In this document: positions 1,109 to 62,455 of the stretch, piece by piece | How the letters are laid out: each line of letters starts with the position of its first letter | Position numbering within the stretch: position 1 is the first letter of the stretch | Source of the DNA: Corynebacterium sp. | GTDB taxonomy: Bacteria; Actinomycetota; Actinomycetes; Mycobacteriales; Mycobacteriaceae | Length of the DNA stretch: 64,000 nt | Direction: 5' to 3' | Assembly: GCF_030538285.1 (NCBI RefSeq) | Contig: NZ_JAUNUG010000002.1 | Location: forward strand, 76,154 to 140,153 | Notes under the pieces: model-generated | Told to the model about the DNA's origin: nothing | Seen by the model: the letters and a program-made list of their open reading frames with translations, nothing else | The model's database searches: none | Made by a program: the position numbers and the translations under genes

Positions 1109-1312
1109 AAAAGGTCGTGCTCACGCGGGCGCCCCGTGCCGAAATCGCAGTTCCAGGGCCACACTCGGGGCATGCAGCAGGCAGCTGAACCACGGGGCCG
1201 GCGCAGTGCGGTGGTGGATCTGCGCCATGGACACCTCGTACCCGCGACGAGGGCCGCACCGCTGTCACCTGGTGGGTGAAGGGGACGTCGATAAGCGGTA
1301 TGCGGTGCGGAC
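1109..1312. other. Intergenic region between convergent genes
   Basis: About 200 bases between the hydrolase and the convergent DUF4185 gene. I see no convincing reading frame and no hairpin with a T tract. The only notable element is one copy of the GCTTATCGAC decamer at 1287-1296. Confidence 0.5.
1287..1296 (-). repeat. GCTTATCGAC motif copy, intergenic
   Basis: Exact decamer on the minus strand, continuing as GTC. One of only two copies outside genes. Confidence 0.85.
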
Positions 1313-2608
1313 CTACGGCAGCGGCCCGACCGTGAGCTCGGTGCCCGCGAAGTCCTGCTCCGGGGTCTGCGCGGTGAGCGGGACCTCGGTGGTGTTGATG
1401 ACGGACTCGTCGCCAACCTGCGGCACGGTCTGCGGGGCCATGCGACCCTGCGGAGCCGGGGCACCAATGCCGTAGAACTTGTCCAGCCCCGTGACGTTGA
1501 ACTGGGTCGACATGTAGCGGCGGTTGTTCGACGTGTTCCACTGGGAGACCACCAGATCCATGTTGCCGATCGTCGAGCCCGGCACGATGTACGCGCCGTA
1601 GACCTGGGCAAAGTTGTCGGCGTCCTGCGCATCCCGCCAGTTGCCGCCCTTGATGACGGTGGCTGGTTTAACCGCATTCCAGTTATCGGTGATGTTCTTC
1701 GTGATGCGCACCTCCACCGAGTAGGTGGCGGCGTTGAACATCGCCAGCACCCAGTGGCCGTCGATGTAGCGCAGGGTCATCTCACCGGCGGAGACGTTCT
1801 GCGCCAGGATCGGGGTGCGGGCGAAATTCGTCGACCAGGTGCCCGTGCGGGTGTCGTAGTGCTCCCAGGTGTTACGGTCGCCGATCTGGGCTGGCAGGAA
1901 GCGGGAGAGGAAGACGTTATCCTGGCGCTTGAACTGCGAGGACATGACGTAGACGTATCCATCGGGGCCCTGCTCCCAGGTGATGAGGTTGCCCAGCCCG
2001 TTCATGTGGGAAGCCGGGGTGGTGCCCACGGACTGCCACGTGGCGCCGTTGTCTTCCGACTTCCAGATCTGGGTGCGCAGGACATTGCCGATTCCCCGGT
2101 TCCACATGCCCTGCATGTAGAGGGTGCCGCCGATGTTGATGGCGTCCGAAGGGATGACGGTGATGCCGTCGGTGTGGGAGTAGTTAATGAGCTGCTGGGC
2201 AATGTCGCCGTTGTTGAGTGGACGCAGGATCTCGATGCGGCCGTCGGCGTTTTTCACCGCGACGACACCCACCGGGCTCATCCACTCGCCCTGCCCGAAG
2301 GCGGGGCCGCGCCAGGAATCGCCGAAGATGATGGCGAACTCCTCACCCACGCCGATCTGGGTCATGATGCCCAGATCACCGATGAGCAGGCCGATGTCAT
2401 CGGAGATCCCGACCCCGAGGAGGTCGCCGATGACGGAGACCACCAGGGGGCCTTCCACGCGGTCATCGCCGAATTCCACATCGTTCGGCTGCGGGCGAGG
2501 CTTACCGGAGGTGGAGCTGCCGGAGCTCTGCGCCCATGCGGGGCTCAGTACCCCGCCGCCGACGCTGAGGGTGAGGGACAGGGCGAGGATGGTGGCCGTT
2601 TTCTTCAC
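1313..2608 (-). CDS. Secreted DUF4185-domain protein
   Basis: A 431-residue exported protein. The likely start is the GTG at 2608: it is followed directly by a classical Sec signal (KK, a hydrophobic core, then PAWAQ as the signal peptidase site). The mature protein has features of the DUF4185 family, including FGDSWRG, YMQGMWNRG, and a beta-propeller-like repetition of tryptophan-rich strands (WKSEDNGATW resembles a BNR/Asp-box repeat). DUF4185 proteins are extracellular and of uncertain function; the Asp-box-like repeat suggests carbohydrate binding or hydrolysis, which is inference. It is divergent from the sugar-dehydrogenase lipoprotein at 2678 across about 70 bases. Confidence 0.8.
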   Translation of the reverse strand: MKKTATILALSLTLSVGGGVLSPAWAQSSGSSTSGKPRPQPNDVEFGDDRVEGPLVVSVIGDLLGVGISDDIGLLIGDLGIMTQIGVGEEFAIIFGDSWRGPAFGQGEWMSPVGVVAVKNADGRIEILRPLNNGDIAQQLINYSHTDGITVIPSDAINIGGTLYMQGMWNRGIGNVLRTQIWKSEDNGATWQSVGTTPASHMNGLGNLITWEQGPDGYVYVMSSQFKRQDNVFLSRFLPAQIGDRNTWEHYDTRTGTWSTNFARTPILAQNVSAGEMTLRYIDGHWVLAMFNAATYSVEVRITKNITDNWNAVKPATVIKGGNWRDAQDADNFAQVYGAYIVPGSTIGNMDLVVSQWNTSNNRRYMSTQFNVTGLDKFYGIGAPAPQGRMAPQTVPQVGDESVINTTEVPLTAQTPEQDFAGTELTVGPLP

Positions 2609-2665
2609 GTGTAGGCACAATACCAGCAGGTGGGCGCGACGGCGGATGACAAGCATCACACGACG

Positions 2666-2671
2666 TAGGGT
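2666..2671 (+). promoter_or_regulatory. -10 hexamer TAGGGT of a leaderless gene
   Basis: TAGGGT, then GGGGCT, then the ATG at 2678. The six-base gap predicts a leaderless transcript. Confidence 0.55.
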
Positions 2672-2677
2672 GGGGCT

Positions 2678-3808
2678 ATGCGTCGAATTCTCGCCCTTTC
2701 CCTGGCCGCCGCCCTGCTCACCGGATGCACCAGCGCCCCGCAGGAGGTGACCCCACCGCAGGAGGGGGCGACCGTCGCACCCGCCACCCCCAGCGACTCC
2801 GGGGCGACCCGTGAATTCATCGTCGACGAGCACGGCACCTTCAACACCGGTTGGGCCATGGCTTTTCTGCCGGGAACCGACCATCTCCTGATCAGCGAGC
2901 GTCGCGGCGCGCTGCAGCTGCGCAACCAGAACACCGGCCAGGTCACCGAGGTCACCGGAGTGCCGGAGGTGCATGCCGAAGGGCAGGCCGGCATGCACGA
3001 TGTCATCCCCGGCCCCACCTTCGAGGAGGACGGGATGATCTACCTCAGCTGGGTGCGACCGCACATAAACGGCGCGCAGGGTGTGGTGGGACGTGCGTAC
3101 CTGGACATGGAGGGGGCGTCGATAAGCACGGTGGAAGAGATATGGGAACAGACCCCGGCTGCCGGCAACGGACACCTCTCCCTGCGTTTGCTTATCGACG
3201 CCACCCACCTCTACGTCACCTCCGGTGACCGCATGGAGATGACGCCTGCGCAGGAGCACGACACCAACCTCGGCTCCGTCCTGCGGCTCACCCACGAGGG
3301 GCAGCCCGCGCCGGACAATCCCTGGGGCACGGAACAGTGGACGATGGGGCACCGCAACGCACTTGGCATTGACACGGATGCGCAGGGCCGGATCTGGGTC
3401 TCCGAGATGGGCCCGCAAGGTGGCGACGAGCTTAACCTACTGGTGGAGGGCGACAACTACGGCTGGCCCGAGGTGTCCATGGGTGTCCACTACAACGACG
3501 ATCCCATCCCGGACCACACCGACGGCGACGGCTTCCACGGCCCGGCCGCGTGGTGGGTGCCGTCGATCTCGCCGGGCAACCTACTCATCTACTCAGGGGA
3601 GCTTTTCGAAGGCTGGGCCGATTCCGCCCTCCTCGGCGGACTGTCCGGTCAGAAGATCGTCCGCGTGGAGCTCGGCGAACCTGCCACCGTGGTCGATGAG
3701 TGGGAGATGGGTGCCCGCATCCGGGCGCTCGCCGAGGCTCCCGACGGCGCGATCTGGGTGCTCGAGGACGGGCCGGAGGGACGTCTGTTGGAGCTGCGCC
3801 CGGCCTGA
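2678..3808 (+). CDS. PQQ-dependent sugar dehydrogenase family lipoprotein (GSDH type)
   Basis: A 376-residue lipoprotein with a short signal peptide ending in the lipobox LTGC, lipidated cysteine at residue 17. The mature part is a six-bladed propeller of the glucose/sorbosone dehydrogenase family: YVTSGD, then HDTNLGSVLRL, then GHRNALGID and WVSEMGPQGGDELN. These blades carry the quinone and calcium site in soluble aldose dehydrogenases. It would oxidise a sugar or aldehyde outside the membrane. No PQQ synthesis genes are visible, so PQQ would have to come from outside. It is convergent with rtcB, with only 7 bases between the stop codons. It holds two copies of the GCTTATCGAC motif. Confidence 0.82.
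   Translation: MRRILALSLAAALLTGCTSAPQEVTPPQEGATVAPATPSDSGATREFIVDEHGTFNTGWAMAFLPGTDHLLISERRGALQLRNQNTGQVTEVTGVPEVHAEGQAGMHDVIPGPTFEEDGMIYLSWVRPHINGAQGVVGRAYLDMEGASISTVEEIWEQTPAAGNGHLSLRLLIDATHLYVTSGDRMEMTPAQEHDTNLGSVLRLTHEGQPAPDNPWGTEQWTMGHRNALGIDTDAQGRIWVSEMGPQGGDELNLLVEGDNYGWPEVSMGVHYNDDPIPDHTDGDGFHGPAAWWVPSISPGNLLIYSGELFEGWADSALLGGLSGQKIVRVELGEPATVVDEWEMGARIRALAEAPDGAIWVLEDGPEGRLLELRPA
3118..3127 (-). repeat. GCTTATCGAC motif copy in the sugar dehydrogenase gene
   Basis: Read by the host gene as Ser-Ile-Ser, not the Leu-Ile-Asp reading used elsewhere. Inverted relative to the copy 62 bases downstream. Confidence 0.85.
3190..3199 (+). repeat. GCTTATCGAC motif copy in the sugar dehydrogenase gene
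   Basis: Read as Leu-Ile-Asp-Ala in the host frame. Confidence 0.85.
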
Positions 3809-3815: not shown

Positions 3816-4991
3816 CTACAGCCCCTTGACGTTGAGCACCTGTCGCAGCGTGTGGCGGATGCGTACCAGCGGAGCGGCGTCCTCCATGACCACGTCGATG
3901 GGTTTGTACGCGGCCGGGATCTCATCCACCCACTGTTTGCCGGGGCGGTAGACAATGTCGCCCATGGCCTTTTCCAGGTCGGCGGCGGTGTACCTCTTCT
4001 TCGCTTGGGTGCGGCTGAGTGCTCGACCGGCGCCGTGCGGGGCGGAACGCAGGGCCTCGTCGTTGCCGAGGCCTTCGACGACGTAGGACTGCGCGCCCAT
4101 GGATCCGGGGATGAGCCCGGGGCGGCCGTCGGAGGCGTCGATGGCACCCTTGCGGGTGAGCCACACGTGGACGCCGTCGATGACGGCGGGTTCGGTGTAG
4201 TTGTGGTGAGAGTTGATGCGTTCGACCTCGCCGACGTCGCTATCGCCTAAGAAGTCGGCCAGGGCCCAGGCGAAGCGGTCCATCATGTCCTCTCGGTTGA
4301 GCAGGGCGAAGTGCTGGGCCCAGCGCAGCTCGCGCAGGTAGCGGTCGAACTCGGGGGTGCCTTCGCGCAGGTAGGCGTGGTCGGGGTGGTCGAGAATGAC
4401 CCCTTCCCGGCGGCACTGCTCCTGGGCGGCGCGGATGTGGACGCGGGCGATCTTGTTGCCCACGCCGCGGGATCCGGAGTGGAGGAACATCCACACGTTG
4501 TCGTCCTCGTCGAGGCACAGTTCGATGAAGTGGTTGCCGCCGCCGAGGGTGCCTAGCTGGACTTTCCAGTGCGGGGAGTGGGAGAGGTCGACGTCGTCAC
4601 GCTTCGCCAGGTCGGTGAGTTCCTGCAGCCGCGGGGCGGTGAAAGTGAAGCGGTCGGTGCGTTTGTTGTAGTTGCCGGGGGAGAGCGGGATGACGTGTTC
4701 CAGGGTGTCGCGCAGCTGGGTGAGCTCGTGTCCCTGCAGGTCGGCGGCGGTGTAGCGGGTGCGGGCGGCGATCATGCCGCAGCCGATATCCACGCCGACG
4801 GCTGCCGGGATGACCACTCCGACAGTGGGGATGACGGTGCCCACCGCGGAACCGAGTCCCGCGTGGGCATCGGGCATCAGCGCGATATGCGGGTGGATGA
4901 ACGGCAGCTGCCCGAGGGAGCGGGCCTGGTCGGCGGTGGTGTCGTCGAGAAGCGATGCCCACGACTTCACGGAATCGGAGAGGGACTGCAT
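3816..4991 (-). CDS. rtcB: RtcB-type RNA ligase
   Basis: A 391-residue RtcB homologue. These GTP- and manganese-dependent ligases join RNA 2',3'-cyclic phosphate or 3'-phosphate ends to 5'-hydroxyl ends and act in RNA repair or stress-induced rRNA and tRNA healing. Diagnostic motifs are present: GVDIGCGM with the metal-binding Asp and Cys, GGGNHFIEL, LHSGSRGVGNKIA, and PGSMGAQSYVVEG near the guanylylated histidine region. Length is typical of short bacterial RtcB. The start is supported by AAAGGAC seven bases upstream. The amphi-Trp-like reading frame ends 15 bases upstream, so the two would form one transcript. No rtcA or archease is seen. Confidence 0.9.
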   Translation of the reverse strand: MQSLSDSVKSWASLLDDTTADQARSLGQLPFIHPHIALMPDAHAGLGSAVGTVIPTVGVVIPAAVGVDIGCGMIAARTRYTAADLQGHELTQLRDTLEHVIPLSPGNYNKRTDRFTFTAPRLQELTDLAKRDDVDLSHSPHWKVQLGTLGGGNHFIELCLDEDDNVWMFLHSGSRGVGNKIARVHIRAAQEQCRREGVILDHPDHAYLREGTPEFDRYLRELRWAQHFALLNREDMMDRFAWALADFLGDSDVGEVERINSHHNYTEPAVIDGVHVWLTRKGAIDASDGRPGLIPGSMGAQSYVVEGLGNDEALRSAPHGAGRALSRTQAKKRYTAADLEKAMGDIVYRPGKQWVDEIPAAYKPIDVVMEDAAPLVRIRHTLRQVLNVKGL

Positions 4992-8152: not shown

Positions 8153-10121
8153 CGGTGTTCTTCTCCTGTGACTGTGCGTGTTCGCGCTTGAGTCGTTGCA
8201 GCACGAGCACCGCTTCCGCGTACAGCCGCTCCGTGGGGTCCTCACTCCTGCGGTCGGGGCGCTTCCCGTTCACCTTCACCCAGTTCTGAACGGTGGGGAA
8301 AAGCTCCATCGCCTCCTGAGGGCTCATGTCGATGCGGCTGGCGGCGATCGAGTCGGAGATCAACCGCAGCACCGACGGGGTCACGGACTTGGACATGACC
8401 TCGAAGGCGCGTTGGAAGGGGTTGACTGCATCGATGAGATTGATGTGCAGCTTCTCGATGTCCACGAAGGAATTGGCGAGTTTGATGAAGCGCTTGTCTC
8501 CGACCTCCCGTACCTCGCCGGTCTTGATCACGGAGTCGACGACCACGCGCTGGCGTACCTCCTCCAGCTCTGCATCGGTCAGATCGGGATAGCGCTCCCG
8601 GATGATCTTCGGGATGAGGATCTTGTTGGTGGTCTCCGGGTCGACACCGCCGGCGGCGGCACGTGCGAAGGTGTCATCCTGGAGGATGGTCGCCTTGAGG
8701 TCATTGAGATCGGAATCGACGATCTGCCTCACCCGGTCGGTGGACGGCTCCCGGAACCCGTCGACCTTGATTTGACCGGGTTTGGCGTGGTCATCATTGC
8801 CGTGCTTCGTCTTGAAGTCGAAGTTCTGCGCCAGCACCTGCTCCATCAGCAAGGAGGCGGTGATGGCCTTGAGCATGTTGTTGACGGACACGGTCACCTC
8901 GTCCTGCGTGGCGTCCGGCTCAGCGATGAGGTTGGTGAACTGGGCGTGTTCCTTGCCTTCGACGTCACGGGTGACACGTCCGATGATCTGGATGATCTCC
9001 GTGAGCGAGGCGCGGTAGCCGACGGTCAGGGCGTGCTCGGCATACGGCCAGTCGAAGCCCTCCTTGGCCATGCCGAGGGCGATGATGATGTCGATGCCGT
9101 CGCGGTCCTTCGCCGCCACCTCGGTGAGGTAGATCAGGGTGGCTGCGCGCGCCTTCTGATCGGTGTCGTCGACGAGGTCGGCGACCTGGAGGATCTCTCC
9201 GGTGTCGCGTCGGCGCACGCTGATGATCCCGGTGTCTTCGTCAACGCCGTCGACCTCGCCGATGACGTCGAGGATGTATCCGACCTCCTCCAGTTTGTCC
9301 TTGGTGGATTCGCCGGAGTTCACGCTCGGGATGTGGAGGATGGTCTTTTTATCCAGGTCCAGCACCTCATCGATCGCGTCGGTGTAGCGCCCCTGGTAGA
9401 AGTGGTGGCCGATGCCGAGCGACTGCAGGTGGCGGTAGCCGTTGAGCTGGTCGTAATAGTTGAAGGTGACGGGGGTGAACTTCGCCTCGTCCTCGGGGGA
9501 GAGCACCGGCACGGTGTCGCCGCGGAAATAGGAGCCCGTCATAGCGACAACGTGGGCGTCGGAGCCCGCCATGACGCTGCGCAGCAGAGAGCCGAGGCGG
9601 CTGGAGTCGAGGTCGGCGGAGACGTGGTGGAACTCGTCGATGGCCAACACCGTGCCATCGAAATCCTCCGGGGCGAGCTTCTCGAAAGCAAAGCGCAGGG
9701 TGGCGTGGGTGCACACGAGGATCGGATCACTGCCCTGCAGGAAGCGCACGAAGGAATCGACCTTGCTTTCCGACGACCCCGGGATACACAGGTTGTTGCG
9801 CTCCTCCACCGCCCAGTTGGCGAAGAAACCGTGGGTGACCAGGTCGGTGTCGCCGAAGGAGGCGCCGATCGAGCGTTCCGGTACCGCGACGATGACCTTT
9901 GTGCGCCCCTGGTTGTAGAGCTTGTCCAGACCGACGAACATCAGCGCGCGGGACTTGCCCGAGGCCGGCGGTGCCTTGATCAGCAGGTAGGGGGAATCAC
10001 GATGCTCAAAGACGCGGCGCTGCATCTCCCGCATGCCCATGGCGTCGGTGTTGACCGAGGTGCCCGCCTGGGCGTAGGTCACGTTGACGATATTACTGAC
10101 GGGTTTGCTGTGTTTGCCCAT
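8145..10121 (-). CDS. SF2 DEAD/DEAH-box helicase or translocase of a putative restriction cassette
   Basis: A 658-residue superfamily 2 ATPase. Walker A is APPASGKS (about 50-57), motif II is DEFH (162-165), motif III is TGSYF (195-199) and motif VI is QIIGRVTRD. The segment ALGMAKEGFDWP corresponds to the motif V region of restriction-type helicases. The second half after motif VI is a long helical region with no recognised domain. It likely uses ATP to translocate on or remodel DNA for the nuclease encoded next. It starts 8 bases after the methyltransferase stop, behind GAGGAAT. Related bipartite helicase-nuclease restriction enzymes are known (for example CglI of Corynebacterium glutamicum), but the nuclease type here differs. 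Confidence 0.85.
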   Translation of the reverse strand: MGKHSKPVSNIVNVTYAQAGTSVNTDAMGMREMQRRVFEHRDSPYLLIKAPPASGKSRALMFVGLDKLYNQGRTKVIVAVPERSIGASFGDTDLVTHGFFANWAVEERNNLCIPGSSESKVDSFVRFLQGSDPILVCTHATLRFAFEKLAPEDFDGTVLAIDEFHHVSADLDSSRLGSLLRSVMAGSDAHVVAMTGSYFRGDTVPVLSPEDEAKFTPVTFNYYDQLNGYRHLQSLGIGHHFYQGRYTDAIDEVLDLDKKTILHIPSVNSGESTKDKLEEVGYILDVIGEVDGVDEDTGIISVRRRDTGEILQVADLVDDTDQKARAATLIYLTEVAAKDRDGIDIIIALGMAKEGFDWPYAEHALTVGYRASLTEIIQIIGRVTRDVEGKEHAQFTNLIAEPDATQDEVTVSVNNMLKAITASLLMEQVLAQNFDFKTKHGNDDHAKPGQIKVDGFREPSTDRVRQIVDSDLNDLKATILQDDTFARAAAGGVDPETTNKILIPKIIRERYPDLTDAELEEVRQRVVVDSVIKTGEVREVGDKRFIKLANSFVDIEKLHINLIDAVNPFQRAFEVMSKSVTPSVLRLISDSIAASRIDMSPQEAMELFPTVQNWVKVNGKRPDRRSEDPTERLYAEAVLVLQRLKREHAQSQEKNTDE

Positions 10122-10129
10122 GATTCCTC

Positions 10130-12817
10130 TTACTTCTTCTCCGCGGCGATGGCGTCTTCATACATAGCAAACAGGGTGGACAGACGGGCTTCATCAGTCT
10201 CGAACGCTCGTGTGGAATACAGCTTGTCGACGGCCGCATCCACCTCCGCATGCGCCTGCCGGAGATTCGCGGGCATCTTATCCGGGTCGTACAGCTGCGC
10301 CAGCGTGAACTCGCAGTGATACTCCCGCACATCGAGAACCCGCAGGGCCAGCTCCGTGAGTTCCTCCTTGGAATGTGTGCTCAAGGGCGGAACCGGGAAG
10401 TTGTTGTAGACAATGGTGTTGGAGTAGCGGAAATCCGTCTTCATCTTCCCGCCGACGGCTCTCACCCACACCATGTGCATGCGTGAGGTGAGCAGTGCGA
10501 AAAGCCAGGGTTCGGCGTCATAGACGGCGAAGGCGAGGTTCGAGATGACCGTATCGGGTCCGAGATAGCCGATCGGGATGTAGTCCCGGCGCTCGGAGGA
10601 CACGCTCGGCACGATGATGGAGTTCGTGGGTTTGTAGGCAATGTGCCCAAAAGAATATGGGATGGCAGCCAGCTTTTGTGTAGCGGGTCGCTTACTGGAG
10701 ATCCTGTGTTCCCGTACCTTTTCTATCCGTTCGAGAATCGGCGGTATAGAGGATAGCTTCAAAAAGCTCTTTGCGTCTAACCATAGGGCCCAGCGCTCCC
10801 TGCCGCTAATCAGCTCACTGGCTCCAATGAAGCGCTTTAGGAATTCTGGGCACTGAGGATATTGCTTAATGAGGTCATTCGATTCCTCGGTAGTAAGTAG
10901 AAGATTTCCTCCGTCGTTCGGCATGCTGCCGAACACCATTGAGGGAAGCACGTTACTTGTCGGCTTAGTTCTTCTTGCTACTGTCACAAATGGGCCGTCC
11001 GCCAGATACCCGTTGATATTCGATGCTCGGATCCGCAGGTCATCGGTGAAGATGTACTTCGGTTTGTCGCTCGACATGCGAAGTGAGACCACCACGACGG
11101 TGACGCCCGCGTTGTACTTGGCGTTGTTCTCCCATTTGAATGACGTGTAGGCGTAACCGATCTCGATGCCCATGTCGAAGATCATGGGGAACATCAATGC
11201 GACGTGTTCGCCCTGAACCACCGAATTCGTCGACACCAACGACAACTCGGCACGCGTATCCCTTATGTAGTCCGCGCCCTTTATGAACCACAGAGCGATG
11301 TAATCCAGGTTCTTCGAGAAGGGCCGTGCCCCGAAAACGAACTCGTAATCCTCCTTCTGTTCCTTAGTCTGCTTCTTAGATCCGCCGTACGGCGGGTTGC
11401 TGATCAGGTAGATCTCATCCGTGCCGTTGTTTGGGCACACCTGGTTCCAGTCCAGGCGGGCGGCGTTGCCGGCGACGATGTTGCCGGTCTCCTTCAGCGG
11501 GATGAGCGGGATGCTGATGCCGAACTTCTCGGCGAACTCCGCGTTCATCTGGTGCTTGGCGATCCACATCGACAGGATCGCCACTTCCACAGCAAAGTCA
11601 TCGATCTCGATGCCGAAGAAGTTCTCGATGTTGATGCGCGAATCGGTGAACAGGGCGTCTTGGGTCTTGTTCAGGCTGGCCAACCGGTCGAGGATCGCGT
11701 GCTCCAGGCGGCGTAGTTCCTTGTAGGCGATGACTAGGAAGTTTCCCGAACCACACGCCGGATCGAAGATCGTGATCCCGGCGATACGGTCGTAGAGGCG
11801 GTTGAGTTGGGGGATGCTGTCGTAGGCGGCGTCGAAACGCTCCTTCAACTCGTCGAGGAACAGCGGCTCGATCGTCTTTAAGATGTTCGGCACCGAGGTG
11901 TAGTGCTGCCCCAGGTCCGAGCGCGTGCCCGGGGAAACGATCGCCTGGAACATGGAACCGAAGATGTCCGGGTTGATCTCCTGCCACATCAGGGTGCCCA
12001 GGTCGATGAGCAGCGTGCGCGCCTTCGCCGTGAAGTCGGGCACCACCATGGCGGCGTCCGCGCTGAACAACCGACCGTTGACGTACGGGAAGTCCCGCAG
12101 GTGTGTGGGCTTGTCCTGGGGAACAGGGGTGTCCAGCGCGGAGAAGAGGTCGGTGAGGAAATCCCGGGTGTCCGAACCATCGGGCAGGGTGTGGGAACCG
12201 ACGGCGTTGGTGAACTGGTTCTCGGTGAACACGCCGGTGTCCTCGGCGAAGAAGCAGAACAGCAGGCGGGTGAAGAACACGTTGAGGCTGTGGCGGCCAG
12301 CCGGGGAGGTGATGAGGTCGGTGTTGGCGGTGAGCAGCTCGTCGAAAAGCTTGCCCATGCGCTCGGCGGCGCGCACATCCGCGTGAGCCTCGGCGACATA
12401 CTGGGCCTTTTCCATACCCGCCCACGGCAGGAAGAACGTGAAGTGCGCGGCGATGTCCCGGATCGGGATGACCAGGTTCTCGCGTGTCTTCATGTCCAAC
12501 GCCACCAGCTCCTCGAAGTCGGTGGCGATGACGAAGCGCGGGGTGTAGCGCACCACATGTGCGGCGGCGCGCAGCTCCTCGACGGCCTCCAGGGCCTGCC
12601 CCTGGGGCACCTCCCGGAAGTACACGACGTTCTTCTGGGCGACCTCCACGTCCGGCTCGGCAGCCACATTAAGGGAACCCGTGCGCAGGCGGGTGAGGGA
12701 GGACTTCGGCTTGCCGTAGGCGTCCAGGAGCTCGAAAATGAACTCCCGATCATAGGACTCGCGGTAGCCCAGGGGCTCGATTCGAGCCTCGACGGCCTTG
12801 AGACTCAGCTTCGCCAT
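10130..12817 (-). CDS. MmeI-like class I DNA adenine methyltransferase
   Basis: An 895-residue N6-adenine DNA methyltransferase. The SAM-binding motif FDPACGSGNFL is at 351-361, preceded by GQHYTS (304-309), and the catalytic motif IV NPPYGG is at 474-479. The N-terminal 200 residues resemble the MmeI-type N-terminal and helical spacer domains (FFTRLLFCFFAEDTGVF), but I see no D-ExK nuclease motif there, so cutting must be done by another protein. The region from about residue 506 to 740 should hold target recognition and has a much lower GC content (about 51% over 10681-11040). First gene of the island; GGAGGAAG precedes the ATG. A methylation-only role cannot be excluded. Confidence 0.85.
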   Translation of the reverse strand: MAKLSLKAVEARIEPLGYRESYDREFIFELLDAYGKPKSSLTRLRTGSLNVAAEPDVEVAQKNVVYFREVPQGQALEAVEELRAAAHVVRYTPRFVIATDFEELVALDMKTRENLVIPIRDIAAHFTFFLPWAGMEKAQYVAEAHADVRAAERMGKLFDELLTANTDLITSPAGRHSLNVFFTRLLFCFFAEDTGVFTENQFTNAVGSHTLPDGSDTRDFLTDLFSALDTPVPQDKPTHLRDFPYVNGRLFSADAAMVVPDFTAKARTLLIDLGTLMWQEINPDIFGSMFQAIVSPGTRSDLGQHYTSVPNILKTIEPLFLDELKERFDAAYDSIPQLNRLYDRIAGITIFDPACGSGNFLVIAYKELRRLEHAILDRLASLNKTQDALFTDSRINIENFFGIEIDDFAVEVAILSMWIAKHQMNAEFAEKFGISIPLIPLKETGNIVAGNAARLDWNQVCPNNGTDEIYLISNPPYGGSKKQTKEQKEDYEFVFGARPFSKNLDYIALWFIKGADYIRDTRAELSLVSTNSVVQGEHVALMFPMIFDMGIEIGYAYTSFKWENNAKYNAGVTVVVVSLRMSSDKPKYIFTDDLRIRASNINGYLADGPFVTVARRTKPTSNVLPSMVFGSMPNDGGNLLLTTEESNDLIKQYPQCPEFLKRFIGASELISGRERWALWLDAKSFLKLSSIPPILERIEKVREHRISSKRPATQKLAAIPYSFGHIAYKPTNSIIVPSVSSERRDYIPIGYLGPDTVISNLAFAVYDAEPWLFALLTSRMHMVWVRAVGGKMKTDFRYSNTIVYNNFPVPPLSTHSKEELTELALRVLDVREYHCEFTLAQLYDPDKMPANLRQAHAEVDAAVDKLYSTRAFETDEARLSTLFAMYEDAIAAEKK
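10600..11300 (-). other. AT-richer target-recognition segment inside the methyltransferase gene
   Basis: Six consecutive sequence lines (10681-11040) count 26 to 34 G+C per 60 bases, about 51%, while flanking parts of the same gene look like the rest of the window. The segment corresponds to the expected target-recognition region, where sequence exchange is common. Confidence 0.7.
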
Positions 12818-12964
12818 GGGCTTCCTCCACCTGATTGAACATCGCTACTGGCAATGAGTGTATCGGCGGTGGGGGACTTTCCGAGCTGCCGGGTCGAGGT
12901 GTGCCGCCTGTATCTTTCGTGGCGGGTCCACCACGTGTGGCCGCGCCCGCCGGCGTCGTACAGT

Positions 12965-13576: not shown

Positions 13577-13586
13577 GCCCCTCACC

Positions 13587-25718: not shown

Positions 25719-25723
25719 AGAGA

Positions 25724-37958: not shown

Positions 37959-37989
37959 GCCCGCGTGGTCGGCGGTTATCGTCCGGGGC

Positions 37990-55071: not shown

Positions 55072-56985
55072 GTGTCCCATCCTGAGTTCCGCAACGTCGC
55101 CATCGTCGCACACGTCGACCACGGCAAGACCACCCTCGTCAACTCCATGCTGGAGCAGTCCGGCGTGTTCGACGACCACGGTGGTGTCACCGACCGCGTG
55201 ATGGACTCCGGCGACCTCGAACGCGAGAAGGGCATCACCATCCTGGCCAAGAACACCGCCGTGCGCCGCAAGGGTGCCGGCAAGGACGGCCGTGACCTCA
55301 TCATCAACGTCATCGACACCCCGGGTCACGCCGACTTCGGCGGCGAGGTCGAACGCGCCCTGTCCATGGTCGACGGCGTCGTCCTGCTTGTCGACGCCTC
55401 CGAGGGCCCCCTCCCGCAGACCCGCTTCGTGCTGGGCAAGGCGTTGGCCGCGAAGATGCCAGTGATCATCCTGGTGAACAAGACCGACCGCTCCGACGCG
55501 CGTATCGACGAAGTCGTCGAGGACGCCCAGGATCTCCTCCTCGAGCTGGCCTCCGGCCTGGAGGACGAGGAGGCCGCCCTGGCCGCCGAGAGCCTGCTGG
55601 ACCTGCCGGTCCTCTACGCCTCCGGCCGTGAGGGCAAGGCGTCCACCGAGAACCCGGGCAATGGTGTCGCCCCCGACGCCGCGGACCTCCAAGCCCTGTT
55701 CGACGTCATCTACGAGGTGCTCCCGGAGCCCTCCGCCGATATCGCCGCCCCGCTGCAGGCTCACGTCACCAACCTGGACTCCTCCTCCTTCCTCGGCCGC
55801 ATCGGCCTGGTCCGCGTCCACGCCGGCACCTTGAAGAAGGGCCAGCAGGTCGCCTGGATCCACTACGACGACGAGGGCAACCCGCACACCAAAAACGTTC
55901 GCATCGCAGAGCTGCTGCGCACCGTCGGCACCACCCGCGTGCCCGCCGAAGGGGAGGTCGTCGCCGGTGACATCGCCGCCATCTCCGGCATCGACGAGAT
56001 CATGATCGGCGACACCCTCGCCGACCCGGAGAACCCTGTCGCCCTGCCGCGCATCACCGTCGACGAGCCCGCCATCTCCATGACCATCGGTGTCAACACC
56101 TCCCCGATGGCCGGCCGCGGCGGCGGCGACAAGCTCACCGCCCGCATGGTCAAGGCCCGCCTCGACCAGGAGCTCATCGGTAACGTCTCCATCCGCGTCC
56201 TGCCCACCGAGCGCCCCGACGCCTGGGAGGTCCAGGGCCGCGGCGAGATGGCCCTGTCCGTCCTCGTCGAGACGATGCGCCGTGAGGGCTTCGAGCTGAC
56301 CGTCGGCAAGCCGCAGGTGGTCACCCAGGTCATCGACGGCACCGTCCATGAGCCCTTCGAGCGCATGGTCATTGACGTCCCCTCCGAGCACCAGGGTGCC
56401 GTCACCCAGCTCATGGCCGCCCGCAAGGGCCAGATGGTGTCCATGGACACCGGCTCCGGTGACTGGGTCCGCATGGAGTTCGACGTCCCGGCCCGCGGCC
56501 TCATCGGCTTCCGCACCACTTTCATGACCGAGACCCGAGGCACCGGCATCGCCAACTCTTACGCCATCGAGCAGCGCCCCTGGGCCGGCGAGATCAAGGA
56601 CCGCGCCACCGGTTCTCTGGTCGCCGACCGCTCCGGCCAGATCACCTCCTACGCCCTGCAGCAGCTGTCCGACCGCGGCAACTTCTTCGTCGAGCCGGGC
56701 ACCGAGGCGTATGAGGGCATGGTCGTCGGCGCGAATAACCGCGACGAGGACATGGACATCAACATCACCCGCGAGAAGAAGCTGACCAACATGCGTGCCG
56801 CCTCCGCGGACACCACCGTCACCCTCGCCAAGGCGCATGTCCTCTCCCTCGACGAGGCCATGGAGTTCTGTGGCCAGGACGAGTGCGTCGAGGTCACCCC
56901 CGACATCCTGCGCGTGCGCAAGGTCATCCTCAACGCCACCGAGCGGGCGCGTGCCCGCTCCCGCGAGAAGGCCCTCAACAAGTAA
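55072..56985 (+). CDS. typA: GTPase TypA/BipA
   Basis: A 637-residue translational GTPase that binds ribosomes under stress and helps large-subunit assembly. G1 is [10 protein letters not shown]2 [10 protein letters not shown]3 DTPGHADF and G4 NKTD. The C-terminal domain has [18 protein letters not shown], a TypA signature. The GTG at 55072 begins V-S-H-P-E-F and is chosen for its agreement with the family start; AGGAG lies at about 55057-55061. The MFS gene begins one base after its stop, making an operon with the next genes. Confidence 0.95.
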
Positions 56986-56986
56986 G

Positions 56987-58153
56987 GTGTCACGCCCCGT
57001 CCTCGGCGTCGCGCTGCTGTTCGCCACGAACGGGGCGGCGCTCGCCTCCCTGCTTCCCTGGTACCCCACGCTCAAAGCGCAGTGGGGTCTGGGGGATCTG
57101 CTCTTCGGCCTCATGGTCGCCGCCGTCGCCGTAGGCTCACTGGCCTCCACCGTCCTGCCCTCCTTGGCCGTCAACCGTTTCGGCCCGCGCCCGGTGGTGT
57201 TCTACGGCACCATCGCCGTGGCCCTATCCCTCGCCGCCGCCGGCTGGGCCCCGAATGCGGCGGCGTTAGCGGTGGTCCTGGCTGTTATCGGGCTTCTCGA
57301 CGCCGTCATCGACGTCTCCCAGAACGTCGCCGGAGTGCGCGTCGAGGCCGCCCAGGGCCGCTCGATTCTCTCGTCGATGCACGCCTTCTGGTCGCTCGGC
57401 GCGGTTGCCGGGGGAGCGGCCGGCACCCTGGCCGCCAGCTCCGGCATCGACCTGCGCGTTCACCTGGGCGCCGTCGCGCTCGCCATCATCGTCACCGTCG
57501 CCGGTGGCGTGTGGCTGACCGGCCCGGTCCCCGCGGCGGCGCCGGAATCCTCGTCGACGCGCGCGGGCGTCGATAAGCGGATCGGCACCATCATGTGGAT
57601 CGCCCTACCGGCGGCACTCGTGGCCACCTCGGGGACGATGATCGAGGACATCGCCAACAACTGGGCGGGCCTGGCCTCCGTCGACCTGGTCGGGGTGGAG
57701 CTGGGGCAGGCGGGTGTCGCCTTCACCGTGGTGTTGGCGGCGCAGACGATCGGGCGTTTCACCGGTGACAAACTCATCGACGCTTTCGGCCGTGTCGCCG
57801 TGGCCCGCGCGGGAGGGGCGCTCATCGCGCTGGGCGGCGTGTTGGTCATGTCCGCGCACTCCCCGGCGCCGCTGTACATCGGTTTCGCATTGGCCGGCTT
57901 CGGGTGCGCCACCCTGGTGCCGAGTGCTTTCGCCGCGGCCGCGCGCCTGCCCGGCATATCCGAGGGGGCCGGGGTGACCGCGGTGAGCTGGCTCATGCGG
58001 GTGGGTTTCCTGGCCACCAGCCCCGTTCTTGGGGCCCTGTCCGCGGTCACCGAGCTGCGCTGGGCGCTGGGCCTGCTGGTTCTCGCGGGCGGGACCGTCC
58101 TGGTGCTCGCCCCGGCGCTGCGGGAGCGGACCCCGGCCACCCCTGGTACATAA
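56987..58153 (+). CDS. MFS transporter
   Basis: A 388-residue major facilitator protein with about 12 helices. It starts with GTG one base after the typA stop. Weak A-motif loops (NRFGPRPVVF and DKLIDAFGRVAVARAGG) and the opening FATNGAALASLLPWYPTLK place it among small sugar or drug transporters of the YfmO/FucP-like type. Substrate unknown. A charged cytoplasmic loop in the middle carries one copy of the GCTTATCGAC motif. Confidence 0.83.
   Translation: MSRPVLGVALLFATNGAALASLLPWYPTLKAQWGLGDLLFGLMVAAVAVGSLASTVLPSLAVNRFGPRPVVFYGTIAVALSLAAAGWAPNAAALAVVLAVIGLLDAVIDVSQNVAGVRVEAAQGRSILSSMHAFWSLGAVAGGAAGTLAASSGIDLRVHLGAVALAIIVTVAGGVWLTGPVPAAAPESSSTRAGVDKRIGTIMWIALPAALVATSGTMIEDIANNWAGLASVDLVGVELGQAGVAFTVVLAAQTIGRFTGDKLIDAFGRVAVARAGGALIALGGVLVMSAHSPAPLYIGFALAGFGCATLVPSAFAAAARLPGISEGAGVTAVSWLMRVGFLATSPVLGALSAVTELRWALGLLVLAGGTVLVLAPALRERTPATPGT
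57569..57578 (-). repeat. GCTTATCGAC motif copy in the MFS gene
   Basis: Host reads Val-Asp-Lys. Confidence 0.85.
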
Positions 58154-58161: not shown

Positions 58162-59757
58162 GTGAACGTCCGTCTCCTGCCCGCCGTCCTGCTCGCCGTG
58201 ACGCTGAGTGCCTGCTCCGCGAACCCCGGCCCCCCGCCGGTCGAGGAGGCCCCGGAGACCACCACCACTTCCTCCGCCACACCGACCTCCACGCCGGCGC
58301 CGTCGCGGTCAGAGCAGGTCATCGCCATCGGCATCGACCCATTGCCCGCGGGTTTCAACCCGCACCTGCAGGCCGATGCCTCCAGTTTCACCCGCTCGCT
58401 GGCCGACCTGGTCCTGCCCAGCGCCTTCCCCGGCGGGGTGATGGACACGAACGTGTTGGTCTCCGCGGCGGAGATCGAGGCGATCGCCCCCGCCGCCCGC
58501 ACCGTGCGCTATGTCATTTCCCCGGCGGCCCAGTGGTCGGACGGCACCCCGCTCACGGGTGCGGATTTCCGTTACCTCTGGCAGGGCATGACCTCCACCC
58601 CGGGGGTGCTTGACGCGGCCGGTTATGACGCCATCACCGAGGTCCGCACCTCGGCGGACGGGCGCACCGTCGACGTGGATTTTGCCTCCCCCGTCCCCGA
58701 TTGGCGAGAGCTTTTCAACCACCTCCTGCCCGCCCACGTCTTCCAGGGTGAAATCGCCCGCTTCGCCACCGCCCTCGACGACGACATCCCGGCCTCGGGC
58801 GGCCGCTATGCGGTGCAGAGCGTGGACCGTTCCCGCGGCGTGGTCACCCTCCACCGCAATGACCGTTTCTGGGGTGCGGATCCCGCCGCCACCGACCGCG
58901 TCAGCTTCCACGAGATCCGTTCCGTCACCCAGGGTGTGGAGCAGCTGCGCACCGGCCAGATCGGCTACCTCGACGCCACCCCAGGTGAAACAGCCATCGA
59001 CTCCTACCGCCTGATGCGGGACACGCAGGTGCGCCTCATCGACATCCCGCGCGAGCTGACGCTCCACCTGTCGGTGACATCCGCGCTGCTGGGGGAGCAG
59101 GAGGTGCGCGCCGAACTACATTCGCTTATCGACGTCCCCCTCATCGCCCGCCTCGCTTCCGGCCGGACCGCAGAACTCAACGTTCCCCCGCACCAGCCCG
59201 CCCGCTCCCTGGATCAGGGGCCGCCGGAGCTGCTGCCTGCACTCACCGAGGACCGTCCCCTGCGCATCGGCGTCGACCCGGCCGATGAGACGGCGGTCGC
59301 CGCCGCCCGTACCCTCACCGATCTGCTTTCCCAGTTCGAGGTGCGCGCGGAGATGGTCACCGCCGAACTCGGCGAGCACGCCGGCGCCCGCCTCCCCGAG
59401 GGGGAGGTGGATATGGTGCTGGCCTGGCAGCGCGTCGATTCGACCGCCTTGCAGCTGGCTGGGCGGTGGCAGTGCCCGCCGTCGCCGGAGGCCCCGCGCT
59501 CCGGCAACTTGAGCGGTTATTGCTCGGATGACACCCGCCGCGTGGTCGAGGGGCTGCGTAGCGGGATCATCCCCGTCGACGAGGGCAAGGGCTTCTTCCT
59601 CGGCCTCAACACGGGCGAGCATCTCACCGTGCCCGTGCTGGGGGAGAGGCGGATGCTGGTACTCGGCGACGGTATCGTGGGACCGGACCCGGACCTGGAG
59701 AACTGGACCGCCGGTATATCGACGGTGGCGAGCTGGAGGACTAATGACAACCCGTGA
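58162..59757 (+). CDS. lpqW: LpqW-like lipoprotein (family 5 binding-protein fold)
   Basis: A 531-residue lipoprotein related to ABC substrate-binding proteins of family 5. The signal ends AVTLSAC, followed by a Thr/Ser/Pro linker. The domain starts IAIGIDPLPAGFNPHLQADA and includes QWSDGTPLTGADFRYLW. Between typA and mshB this is where M. tuberculosis has LpqW, which controls phosphatidylinositol mannoside and lipoarabinomannan branching and does not work with an ABC transporter. No permease genes are near, consistent with that. The GTG at 58162 is chosen; 58156 is another. It overlaps mshB by 14 bases. Confidence 0.8.
   Translation: MNVRLLPAVLLAVTLSACSANPGPPPVEEAPETTTTSSATPTSTPAPSRSEQVIAIGIDPLPAGFNPHLQADASSFTRSLADLVLPSAFPGGVMDTNVLVSAAEIEAIAPAARTVRYVISPAAQWSDGTPLTGADFRYLWQGMTSTPGVLDAAGYDAITEVRTSADGRTVDVDFASPVPDWRELFNHLLPAHVFQGEIARFATALDDDIPASGGRYAVQSVDRSRGVVTLHRNDRFWGADPAATDRVSFHEIRSVTQGVEQLRTGQIGYLDATPGETAIDSYRLMRDTQVRLIDIPRELTLHLSVTSALLGEQEVRAELHSLIDVPLIARLASGRTAELNVPPHQPARSLDQGPPELLPALTEDRPLRIGVDPADETAVAAARTLTDLLSQFEVRAEMVTAELGEHAGARLPEGEVDMVLAWQRVDSTALQLAGRWQCPPSPEAPRSGNLSGYCSDDTRRVVEGLRSGIIPVDEGKGFFLGLNTGEHLTVPVLGERRMLVLGDGIVGPDPDLENWTAGISTVASWRTNDNP
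59124..59133 (+). repeat. GCTTATCGAC motif copy in lpqW
   Basis: Read as Leu-Ile-Asp-Val. Confidence 0.85.
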
Positions 59758-60595
59758 TCTGATTGGCCGCCGCGTCATGGCCGTCCACGCCCACCCCGAT
59801 GATGAATCCATCACCACCGGTGGCACCCTTTTCGACCTGGCCCGGCGTGGCGCAGACGTGCTGGTGGTCACCTGCACCCTCGGTGAAGAGGGAGAGGTCA
59901 TCGGTGACACCTACGCTCACCTGGTGGGGGAGCACGCCGATCAGCTCGGTGGTTTCCGCATCGGCGAGCTCGCACGCGCCCTCGACGTGCTCGGGGTGCG
60001 TGGGGAGTTTCTCGGCGGGGCCGGTCGTTTCCGGGACTCCGGCATGGCCGGTAGCCCCGCCCATGCCCACCCGCGCGCTTTCGTCAACTCCGGCGAGACG
60101 GCTGTCGAATTGCTCACCGAGCTTATCGGCACCCACCGCCCCGACCTCCTCATCACCTACGGCCCCGACGGCGGCTACGGCCACCCGGACCACATCCGCG
60201 CCCACGAGATCACCCACGCCGCCGCCGGTGACATCTCCGTCCTGTGGACCGTCACCCCGCTGGATGCCTACCGCGCCGGTCTGGACACCATCACCGCCGT
60301 CCCGGCGGGCTGGACCCGGCCGTCGGAGGACTATGTGGAGAATCAGGGCGTCGATAGCCACGATCTCGTGGTACCGCTTGACGACGCCGCCCTCGCCGCC
60401 AAACGCGAAGCCATGCGCGCGCACGCCACCCAGATCTGGTTCGCCGACGGCCATGTCTCCACCACCAATCCGCGCGCTGCGTGGGGCCAGGGTGCACACC
60501 CCGTGTGGGCCCTGTCCAACCTCCACGCCCAGCCGCTTCTCGACGCCGAGTACTACCAGCTCGGTGCCGGCCCACTGCCGGAGTGGTGGGCATGA
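59744..60595 (+). CDS. mshB: GlcNAc-inositol deacetylase of mycothiol synthesis
   Basis: A 283-residue zinc deacetylase that removes acetate from GlcNAc-Ins, the second committed step towards mycothiol. The metal motif HAHPDDE (H15, D18 region) and the second histidine in GYGHPDHIRAHE match MshB. The insert GAGRFRDSGMAGSP is typical of MshB and absent in general PIG-L proteins. ATG at 59744 follows GGAGGA, inside the end of lpqW. It supports the assignment to Corynebacteriales. Confidence 0.92.
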   Translation: MTTRDLIGRRVMAVHAHPDDESITTGGTLFDLARRGADVLVVTCTLGEEGEVIGDTYAHLVGEHADQLGGFRIGELARALDVLGVRGEFLGGAGRFRDSGMAGSPAHAHPRAFVNSGETAVELLTELIGTHRPDLLITYGPDGGYGHPDHIRAHEITHAAAGDISVLWTVTPLDAYRAGLDTITAVPAGWTRPSEDYVENQGVDSHDLVVPLDDAALAAKREAMRAHATQIWFADGHVSTTNPRAAWGQGAHPVWALSNLHAQPLLDAEYYQLGAGPLPEWWA

Positions 60596-60984
60596 GCCAA
60601 GGACTCGTGCGCACCGACTTCAGCCGCGGGGAAGCCATCGGCGGGCTCGTGTGGCTGTCGGTGGCGGCGGCCATCTCCGTGCTGCTGGAAGTCGTCTACC
60701 TGGGCACCTGGGTGACCCTGCCCGGTGGGGCGCGCCTGGCGGTGCCGTACACCATCATCCTGGCGTTTCTATTCAACATGGTGCTCACCCGCACCGCCCG
60801 ACTGTGGAACCCTGCCCCGGTGGTGGCCGCCATCCCGCTGTATGTGTGGCTGGGCGGCTACTTCGCGCTCATGATGGGCGTCGCCGTCACCGGGGACCAG
60901 CTGGTAGGCAGTAATATCCGCAGTGTGCTGCTACTTGCCGCGGGCGTGGCCGGAGGCGTCTGGCCGCTGGTGCGCGCGAAGTGA
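60592..60984 (+). CDS. Small membrane protein in the mshB operon
   Basis: A 130-residue protein with four hydrophobic helices and short charged ends. The start overlaps the mshB stop (ATGA). A protein of this kind follows mshB in mycobacteria too, but no function is known to me. Positive-inside charges (RTARLWN, VRAK) suggest both ends in the cytoplasm. Confidence 0.75.
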   Translation: MSQGLVRTDFSRGEAIGGLVWLSVAAAISVLLEVVYLGTWVTLPGGARLAVPYTIILAFLFNMVLTRTARLWNPAPVVAAIPLYVWLGGYFALMMGVAVTGDQLVGSNIRSVLLLAAGVAGGVWPLVRAK

Positions 60985-61026
60985 CATACTAGGACCCACG
61001 TTTCAACTAAGGAGTGCCCGACCCCC

Positions 61027-61350
61027 ATGACCTACATCATCGCCCAGCCCTGCGTGGACGTCCTCGACCGTTCCTGTGTGGAGGAATGCCCGGTCGACTG
61101 CATCTACGAGGGCAAGCGCATGCTCTACATCCACCCCGACGAGTGCGTCGACTGCGGTGCGTGCGAGCCCGCCTGCCCCGTCGAGGCCATCTTCTACGAG
61201 GACGACGTCCCCGAGGAATGGGACCAGTACTACGACGCCAACGTCGGCTTCTTCGACGACCTCGGGTCGCCCGGTGGGGCGGCGAAGACGGGTCCCGTCG
61301 ATAAGGATCACCCCTTCGTCGCCGCGCTGCCGCCGCAGAACCAGGAGTAA
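61027..61350 (+). CDS. fdxC: Seven-iron ferredoxin FdxC
   Basis: A 107-residue ferredoxin with a 3Fe-4S and a 4Fe-4S cluster. C9, C17, C21 and C25 ([17 protein letters not shown]) and the second group [12 protein letters not shown] match the mycobacterial FdxC type. It carries electrons in cytosolic redox reactions. The gene lies just before dapC as in M. tuberculosis. AAGGAG precedes the ATG at a rather long distance (about 12 bases). Confidence 0.93.
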
Positions 61351-61354
61351 CCCC

Positions 61355-62455
61355 GTGGCCCGCACGCCCCTGGGCACCCGCCTGCCGGACTTCCCCTGGG
61401 ACACCCTCGATGACGCCCGGGCCACCGCGGCCGCGCACCCCGACGGCATCGTCAACCTCTCGGTGGGCACCCCCGTCGACCCGGTCGCGCCCGGCATCCA
61501 GCTGGCCCTGGCCGAAGCCGCCGCAGAACCCGGCTACCCGCAGACCGCCGGCACACCGCAGCTGCGGGAGGCGATCGTGGCGGCGCTGGGGCGTCGCTAC
61601 GGCATGAGCGGGCTGGCTCCCGACGCGGTGCTGCCGGTGGTCGGCACCAAGGAAGCCATCGCCCTGCTGCCCAGCCTGCTGGGCATCCGCGGCGGATTCG
61701 TCGTCATCCCCGAAGTGGCGTACCCCACCTACGAGGTCGCGGCCCTGATGGGAGACAACCGTATCCTGCGCGCCGACTCCCTGCTCAAGATCGGGCCCGA
61801 GAAACCCGACCTTGTGTTCCTCAACTCACCGTCGAACCCGACCGGCAAAGTCCTCGGCGTCGAGCACCTGCGCAAGGTCGTCGGCTGGGCGCGCGAACGC
61901 GGCGTCATCGTCGCCTCCGACGAGTGCTACCTCGGCCTCGGCTGGGGTGAGGAAGAACCCGTCTCCATCCTCGACCCGCGCGTCTGCGACGGCGACCACA
62001 CCGGACTCATCGCCATCCACTCCCTGTCGAAGACCTCCAACCTGGCCTCCTACCGTGCCGGCTACCTCGCCGGCGACCCCGCGCTCATCGCCGAACTCCT
62101 GGAAGTGCGTAAACACCTCGGCCTCATGGTCCCCGGCCCCATCCAACAGGCGATGATCGCCGCGCTGGAGGATGACACCCAGGAAGCCGCCCAGAAGATC
62201 ACCTACGCGCGACGTCGGGCGGTGTTGACGAAGGCGCTTATCGACGCCGGATTCACCATCGACAACTCCGAGGCCGGCCTCTACCTCTGGGCCACCCGCG
62301 GCGAGGACTCCCGCGCCACCGTGGACTGGTTCGCCGGCCTGGGCATCCTCGTCGCGCCGGGCGACTTCTACGGCCCCCGCGGCGCGCAGCACATCCGCAT
62401 GGCGCTGACCGGCACCGACGAGCGTATCGACGCCGCCGCCACCCGCCTTGGCTGA
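61355..62455 (+). CDS. dapC: N-succinyldiaminopimelate aminotransferase
   Basis: A 366-residue class I aminotransferase that makes N-succinyl-LL-diaminopimelate in lysine and peptidoglycan synthesis. The PLP lysine is in SLSKTSNLASYRAGY, the substrate loop NSPSNPTGKVL and the phosphate site SDECYLGLGWGE are normal. The GTG at 61355 starts V-A-R-T-P-L, four bases after fdxC. The last codons overlap the TTG start of the next gene by eight bases. Confidence 0.92.
   Translation: MARTPLGTRLPDFPWDTLDDARATAAAHPDGIVNLSVGTPVDPVAPGIQLALAEAAAEPGYPQTAGTPQLREAIVAALGRRYGMSGLAPDAVLPVVGTKEAIALLPSLLGIRGGFVVIPEVAYPTYEVAALMGDNRILRADSLLKIGPEKPDLVFLNSPSNPTGKVLGVEHLRKVVGWARERGVIVASDECYLGLGWGEEEPVSILDPRVCDGDHTGLIAIHSLSKTSNLASYRAGYLAGDPALIAELLEVRKHLGLMVPGPIQQAMIAALEDDTQEAAQKITYARRRAVLTKALIDAGFTIDNSEAGLYLWATRGEDSRATVDWFAGLGILVAPGDFYGPRGAQHIRMALTGTDERIDAAATRLG
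62236..62245 (+). repeat. GCTTATCGAC motif copy in dapC
   Basis: Read as Leu-Ile-Asp-Ala. Confidence 0.85.

Follow-up and report, generated by a model that had tools for sequence, protein, structure and literature searches.

To our knowledge, uptake tags have so far been described in two Gram-negative families alone, the Neisseriaceae and the Pasteurellaceae. The DNA uptake sequence (DUS) of the Neisseriaceae comprises GCCGTCTGAA and its dialects, with the minor pilin ComP as the receptor, and the uptake signal sequence (USS) of the Pasteurellaceae exists as two types, AAGTGCGGT and ACAAGCGGT, with a common core (according to the accessible part of PMC12616744). As far as the accessible parts of four reports describe them (PMC3630211, PMC12616744, PMC5031613, and PMC7371117), the words of these families lie both within and between genes, possess an inner core, form dialects that roughly follow the phylogeny, and are distributed atypically in mobile elements. 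Here, we analysed a 64,000-nucleotide stretch of the genome of a Corynebacterium sp.—hereafter called the “window”—in which a short word recurs on both strands. This word, GCTTNNCGACG (GCTT-NN-CGACG, with the 11-mer GCTTATCGACG as its best form), is probably a DNA uptake sequence with dialects, as judged from its counts, its spelling, and its distribution over the genus.

How does this word compare with the described systems? Like the DUS, it is short, is present in hundreds to thousands of copies on both strands, within genes and between them, forms dialects around a common inner core that broadly track the phylogeny, and is distributed atypically in mobile DNA. In contrast to the DUS, it is unrelated in sequence, resides in a Gram-positive actinobacterial host, has a free middle dinucleotide, rarely forms terminators of inverted pairs, and is known from genomes alone; moreover, a Tad pilus would take the place of the classical type IV pilus. 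The word also displays the same genomic behaviour as the USS, including types with a common core, while the sequence and the host are again unrelated and the Corynebacterium consensus has no conserved flanking AT tracts, the 3′ flank being C-rich in the source genome. The core is CGACG or CGATG, rather than the CTG core of the DUS or the GCGG core of the USS. Since both the core and the overall sequence are unrelated to the DUS and the USS, the word is a member of neither family, and the likeness would be convergent. The HIP1 word of the cyanobacteria is likewise a very abundant short word that is dense in genes; however, HIP1 is palindromic, while the Corynebacterium word is non-palindromic and has dialects at a core position.

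The source genome comprises 2.95 Mb in 94 contigs, and the contamination estimate of its assembly is 6.73%, so that a few of the counts may belong to a second organism. A reading of the window made from the DNA letters (the sequence-only reading) had singled out the decamer GCTTATCGAC, with 20 exact copies, and every coordinate and strand it gave proved to be correct. Dinucleotide shuffles yield a mean of 0.04 copies and a largest value of 1; Markov models of order 3 and 4 were also used in the analysis, and the order-3 model expects 0.16 copies. The copies are not confined to the window, since 798 of them (400 forward and 398 reverse) are present in the whole source genome, as compared to 3 of the reversed-pattern control (0 and 3 by strand). 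Of the 20 decamers in the window, 18 are followed by G and 2 by A at position 11, and 19 have C or T followed by C at positions 12-13, as had been described; genome-wide, 782 of the 798 copies carry G at position 11. While the enrichment of the decamer was thereby upheld, its definition was too narrow. Position 5 and, to a smaller extent, position 6 are degenerate, the G at position 11 is part of the core, and the decamer is a narrow slice of the wider word GCTTNNCGACG, which occurs 45 times in the window (reversed control, 0) and 1,964 times in the source genome, or about once per 1.5 kb (reversed control, 64).

Among 279 copies of the wider word in 422 kb of the source genome, the middle dinucleotide is AT in 121, CT in 61, GT in 19, and TT in 18. 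The inner core CGACG hardly varies, in contrast to the middle and to some positions of the 5′ half. Changes are tolerated at positions 1, 3, 5, and 6 in at least one of the source genome and G149, a relative with a single-contig chromosome; position 4 tolerates little change, and position 2 hardly any in the source genome. The AT-form variants with one change in CGACG (positions 7-11) number 0-5 copies each in the two genomes, the main excess being A at position 11 in the source genome, with 5 copies as compared to 0.6 expected. We also sought a regular spacing of the word, which some uptake words display, and the coefficient of variation, 0.85-1.06, revealed no clear regularity.

Does the word reflect the encoded proteins or the DNA itself? 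The genes were called by a simple in-house caller, which introduces some error into the counts by frame and of intergenic copies; at least one gene, a glucose/sorbosone dehydrogenase at 2678-3808 that is clear by Pfam, was mis-called. The sequence-only reading had proposed a DNA-level signal beyond codon or protein bias, and the reversed controls and the codon spelling strongly support this proposal. In the source genome, Leu-Ile-Asp is spelled CTT-ATC-GAC in 68 of 111 cases, as compared to 3.8 expected from codon use, Ser-Ile-Ser is spelled TCG-ATA-AGC in 11 of 26 (0.01 expected), and Ala-Tyr-Arg is spelled GCT-TAT-CGA in 6 of 23 (0.01 expected). G149 behaves alike, with 30 of 71, 10 of 20, and 3 of 25, respectively, in the word spelling, and the word-less genome G030, a smaller sample, has 0 of 8, 0 of 4, and 0 of 7. 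In G006, which carries a dialect with CGATG, Leu-Ala-Asp is spelled CTT-GCC-GAT in 13 of 29 cases, as compared to 0.98 expected. The commonest coding frame of the word is Leu-x-Asp, in which the middle bases are the first two bases of the codon flanked by Leu and Asp; their freedom in this frame is thus explained by protein constraint. Moreover, the middle is AT in 17 of 25 intergenic copies in the source genome and in 24 of 31 in G149, as compared to 104 of 254 and 56 of 198 in the remainder, obtained by subtraction. The intergenic copies, which are free of protein constraint, display the optimum more purely. These data strongly support the word as a DNA-level force that dictates codon choice. 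The predominance of the Leu-x-Asp frame would also be expected of a word that arises artefactually, from codon usage, from protein repeats, or from a bias in mutation; this explanation is refuted by the two reversed controls, by the codon choice (above all that of Ser-Ile-Ser), by the existence of intergenic copies, and by the alteration of the word at position 10 in sister species.

In order to follow the word over the genus, we examined 201 Corynebacterium genomes, namely the source genome and 200 others drawn evenly. The counts of GCTTNNCGACG are bimodal, with 280-1,964 copies in 139 genomes, 8-134 in the other 62, and a clean gap between 134 and 280. The CGATG form, GCTTNNCGATG, is present at 625-1,337 copies in 11 genomes and at 12-213 in all others. 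Ten of these 11 genomes hold just 26-97 copies of the CGACG form, and the eleventh, G143, carries both words (352 copies of GCTTNNCGACG and 1,337 of GCTTNNCGATG). A word is found in 149 of the 201 genomes and neither word in 52, three of which (G073, G084, and G200) have an intermediate 159-213 copies of the CGATG form. Outside the genus, the exact 11-mer has at most 10 copies in each of 217 genomes of the order. In samples of about 21 kb each, C. haemomassiliense, C. urinipleomorphum, and C. bouchesdurhonense carry the CGACG form, Corynebacterium sp. J010B-136 carries the CGATG form, C. pygosceleis has neither word, and C. otitidis has one copy.

The dialects were scanned by ranking every 4-NN-5 word that occurs 8 times or more against the Markov model, in place of a gap-shift control that is confounded by codon periodicity. 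GCTTNNCGACG ranks first in the source genome (behind a run-of-N artefact), G149, G019, G103, and G184, and GCTTNNCGATG ranks first in G006 and G144. In G048, GATTNNCGACG ranks first, AATTNNCGACG and GCTTNNCGACG are present as well, and the third form is [GA]ATTNNCGACG. G019, whose best match to the window is 83% identical, has CT as its preferred middle dinucleotide (30 of 57 copies), at a density near that of the source genome (57 as compared to 66 per 100 kb). The genomes G164, G175, and G113 contain 1,752-1,901 copies of the wide word and just 2-4 AT decamers, indicating that other sub-dialects exist. In a tree of 38 Tad-TopA loci, built from five gene sets (each with 1 to 5 loci missing before the source genome was added to two of the five, in which it is represented), the 11 CGATG genomes are all contained in a single clade, which has a support of 100. 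This clade also nests G004 and G036, which carry CGACG, and G014, which carries neither word, with G004 as the sister of the CGATG trio G006, G105, and G153. The nodes uniting the trio, G004, G036, and G143 all have a support of 100, and some deeper nodes of the clade are weak (33-62). Since CGACG genomes are nested within the CGATG clade, position 10 of the core has changed its letter at least twice. The dialects have a common inner core and follow the phylogeny, with nested exceptions.

Next, we consider the orientation of the word. Over the 139 genomes bearing the CGACG form, the strand totals are 75,566 forward and 75,600 reverse. In 20 stretches of 20 kb of the G149 chromosome, where the boundary between leading and lagging was set at 1.26 Mb, the point at which the GC skew turns, 119 copies are leading and 110 lagging (p 0.60). 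Chi and the FtsK-orienting polar sequences (KOPS) are asymmetric, over-represented chromosomal words, as is the present word, and they are polar along the replichore, while the Corynebacterium word is non-polar in G149. Therefore, of the segregation and recombination sites in the list of roles given by the sequence-only reading, the polar and the Chi-like ones are disfavoured. A Chi-type signal for a RecBCD, AddAB, or AdnAB helicase-nuclease, by which self DNA would be protected or recombined, could account for an asymmetric word that is enriched in host DNA and is missing from a cluster of insertion sequences, described below. However, known Chi sites tend to be shorter and to favour the leading strand, unlike this bipartite word of 11 bases, with its free middle, its lineage dialects, and its lack of leading-strand bias in G149; we consider such a signal very unlikely.

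The main rival is that a chromosomal protein, acting in the nucleoid, segregation, or replication, binds the word throughout the genome with a specificity that drifts between lineages. Some 300-2,000 dispersed copies on both strands would suit such a protein, and its co-evolution with the word would explain the dialects equally well. The sites, however, shift between relatives. Where the sites of the source genome are alignable (with the orthology of the aligned stretches assigned by BLAST alone), the word is retained in 7 of 11 cases in G075, 5 of 13 in G019, 1 of 22 in G103, 1 of 13 in G170, and 2 of 10 in G184. The density nevertheless stays at 28-66 per 100 kb across the source genome, G019, G103, G170, and G184, and this turnover of the sites at a density held within about twofold points to a genome-wide property rather than to local regulators. 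Two GCTTATCGACA sites of the source genome align to perfect GCTTCTCGACG words in G019, so that the decamers with A at position 11, of which the window has two (33855 and 36506), look like decayed copies.

The mobile DNA bears on the same question. A 20-kb stretch of G149 (1,920,001-1,940,000) contains zero copies, as compared to a mean spacing of 1.5 kb, and all eight of the proteins scanned there, from among 20 called, carry transposition domains. The stretch is a cluster of insertion sequences of several kinds, encoding transposases and IstB, with repeated copies. Another 20-kb stretch of G149, at 53% GC, has 1 copy and includes a 16-kb word-free run, and a further word-free gap of 8.6 kb is at 65% GC. 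The lowest-GC fifth of the 5-kb bins of G149 contains 0.6 copies per bin, as compared to 2.6-4.3 in the others; the effect is small in the source genome (2.5 as compared to 3.1-4.4), and base composition may contribute to the scarcity in the low-GC stretches. The word is scarce in mobile DNA, in a small sample that is partly confounded with GC. Plasmid pTP10 carries 7 copies, 2 in the tetAB region and 5 in a 5-kb housekeeping block (8609-13582) encoding dihydroorotate dehydrogenase, undecaprenyl-diphosphate phosphatase, MshC, and phosphoribosyl-ATP diphosphatase, a block that was picked after the positions were seen and that has no host density as a baseline. This distribution suggests that the housekeeping block of the resistance plasmid is a chromosomal capture. 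Phage BFK20 carries 1 copy in 42 kb, which is uninformative without the density of its host as a baseline.

A word that is frequent in host DNA and missing from the insertion-sequence cluster might also mark self DNA for a methylase or for a system of self/non-self immunity. Restriction-modification normally depletes its own sites, however, and a non-palindromic word with a 2-base gap is unlike the targets of Type II or Type I enzymes, which makes such a mark most improbable. Nothing in the data supports a methylase mark, although no search for methylases was made. As for the chromosomal protein, the random orientation of the word with respect to replication in G149, the turnover of its sites, its location within genes, where it forces the use of rare codons, and its absence from the 20-kb insertion-sequence cluster are all better explained by a word spread by recombination than by a structural need, and we regard this rival as unlikely. 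Among the roles listed by the sequence-only reading, the uptake-type word fits best, in view of the dialects with a common core, the word-free insertion-sequence cluster, and the genes for competence and the Tad pilus.

How could the word have spread? We infer uptake as the cause, the Tad pilus as the agent, and a pilin as the receptor. We propose that the word is a self-recognition tag preferred by a receptor that the natural-transformation machinery exposes at the cell surface. DNA bearing the word would then enter the cell and recombine more frequently, and molecular drive at neutral and synonymous positions would let the word accumulate. In the proposed sequence of events, the Tad/Flp pilus, consisting of TadA, TadB, TadC, Flp, and small TadE-like pilins, would bind word-bearing DNA and retract, ComEA would bind the incoming DNA, ComEC would lead one strand into the cell, and the word would spread as this strand recombines with the chromosome. 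The lineages would thereby drift to dialects with CGACG or CGATG as the 3′ half and with differing preferred middle dinucleotides. For most Corynebacterium species, it appears likely that such a sequence-specific transformation through the Tad pilus operates; the word would then form a third independent uptake-sequence family, with several dialects and sub-dialects that isolate the species in part and with a TadE-like pilin or ComEA as the receptor.

The source genome possesses a gene for a ComEA-like HHH protein and comEC in the usual order, followed by a gene that resembles holA by eye. Among the 201 genomes, ComEC is found in 200, the T2SSE (TadA) family in 198 (195 above the cut-off), and the Flp pilin family DUF4244 in 198. 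In the Tad loci that were read, with the domains examined in G149 and to some extent in G006, an ssd-like gene (by eye) precedes tadA, and the two T2SSF genes that come next are followed by flp and by genes for small pilin-like proteins. In the actinobacterium Micrococcus luteus, ComEA and ComEC are described as acting with Flp/Tad pili in transformation (according to the accessible part of a review, PMC6370729). ComEC, the TadA family, and the Flp pilin were rejected as the determinant of the word, since all of them are near-universal. A ComEA-like stretch adjoins comEC in the word-less G030 and G147 as well, and by eye, with exceptions both ways, the open frame of ComEC extends to about 700-800 codons in several word-less genomes and to 460-620 in many word-bearing ones.

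A small pilin-like (TadE-like) protein with two invariant cysteines is a candidate for the receptor, and a lead only. The pilin is divergent—defined as E above 1e-24 or no match, a cut set after the table was seen—in 39 of the 52 word-less genomes, as compared to 8 of the 149 word-bearing ones, by a profile (A2) that was built from 8 word-bearing and 4 word-less genomes and leans to the word-bearing. The median ratio of the wide word to its control is 0.66 in the 39 word-less genomes with the divergent pilin and 1.34 in the 13 with the close pilin, and the latter value might represent relics of a lost word.

Several observations weigh against the interpretation as an uptake sequence. First, the machinery does not predict the word, since 51 of the 52 word-less genomes possess ComEC and 51 possess the Flp pilin. 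The association of the TadE-like pilin is confounded by the phylogeny and by the construction of the profile, and 13 word-less genomes carry the close pilin. Second, the one-mismatch variants of the core total no more than chance (12 as compared to 11.6 expected in the source genome, and 2 as compared to 6.9 in G149), which is unlike a simple balance between mutation and drive. Third, the relatives differ about twofold in density, and since density drops with GC, the low-GC, word-poor stretches are confounded. Fourth, inverted-pair terminators are frequent in Neisseria but rare here: in 422 kb of the source genome, we found two hairpins of inverted words followed by T-runs (L118:5323 and L119:15616), which are probable terminators, and close word pairs are not in excess (31 within 200 bp, as compared to 33.9 expected). 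Fifth, in about 100 kb or more of each of the word-less G014, G030, G133, G147, and G152, we found no substitute word of comparable strength. Finally, the titles and abstract openings of the open-licence PubMed Central (PMC) literature yielded no report of natural transformation in Corynebacterium. The same search yielded no report of the word or of any Corynebacterium uptake word, none of 20 out of 44 papers containing its letters is about Corynebacterium as judged by the title, and the accessible part of a spaced-motif scan of 569 genomes (PMC5217627) names three Corynebacterium species, with only CRISPR patterns given for them. Two of the word-less genomes contain repeats of another kind: the 11-mer GCATCGCGCGA occurs 8 times in 100 kb of G147, as compared to 0.1 expected, and G133 has a dispersed repeat of greater length, built with CCAACCGTGCAC and CACCCCTTAG blocks, in about 11 copies in 100 kb.

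The sites in the window were located by a scan for the 11-mer word, and their intergenic status was taken from the in-house gene caller. The best form GCTTATCGACG, found by both the shuffle-tested decamer and the word scan, lies on the forward strand at 3190-3200, 15679-15689, 26557-26567, 28808-28818, 36840-36850, 37949-37959, 41455-41465, 53015-53025, 59124-59134, and 62236-62246, and on the reverse strand at 1286-1296, 3117-3127, 17709-17719, 34974-34984, 35427-35437, 39309-39319, 49840-49850, and 57568-57578. Two of the 20 decamer copies, those at 1286 and 37949, are intergenic, in agreement with the sequence-only reading. The two decamers with A at position 11, namely GCTTATCGAC followed by A and thus off the core, are at 33855-33864 and 36506-36515 on the forward strand and were likewise found by both approaches. 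The remaining forms were found by the word scan. GCTTCTCGACG lies on the forward strand at 13658-13668, 22033-22043, 22610-22620, 37200-37210, 41518-41528, 48934-48944, 57292-57302, and 60535-60545, and on the reverse strand at 4943-4953, 13916-13926, 13994-14004, 27184-27194, 28387-28397, 42351-42361 (intergenic), and 62900-62910. GCTTGTCGACG is found at 10222-10232, 24695-24705, 33040-33050, and 55386-55396 on the forward strand and at 35990-36000 on the reverse strand, GCTTTTCGACG at 12340-12350 and 36759-36769, both on the reverse strand, and GCTTGCCGACG at 24587-24597 (forward) and 56301-56311 (reverse). Single forward copies are those of GCTTTCCGACG at 9765-9775, GCTTGGCGACG at 46205-46215, and GCTTGACGACG at 60376-60386. 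The window also contains a gene for a SelB-type selenocysteine elongation factor (25637-27505), suggesting selenoprotein synthesis in the host species.

If the word is indeed an uptake sequence, then the Neisseriaceae and Pasteurellaceae would no longer be the only families with such a system, and a Gram-positive lineage would be represented for the first time. Uptake words would thus evolve repeatedly, with a third and unrelated case in the Actinobacteria, and about 150 genomes with natural dialect switches would become available for finding the receptor and for testing models of molecular drive. The addition of the word to donor DNA is suggested as a practical handle in Corynebacterium genetics. 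Many Corynebacterium species would be naturally competent, either now or in the recent past.

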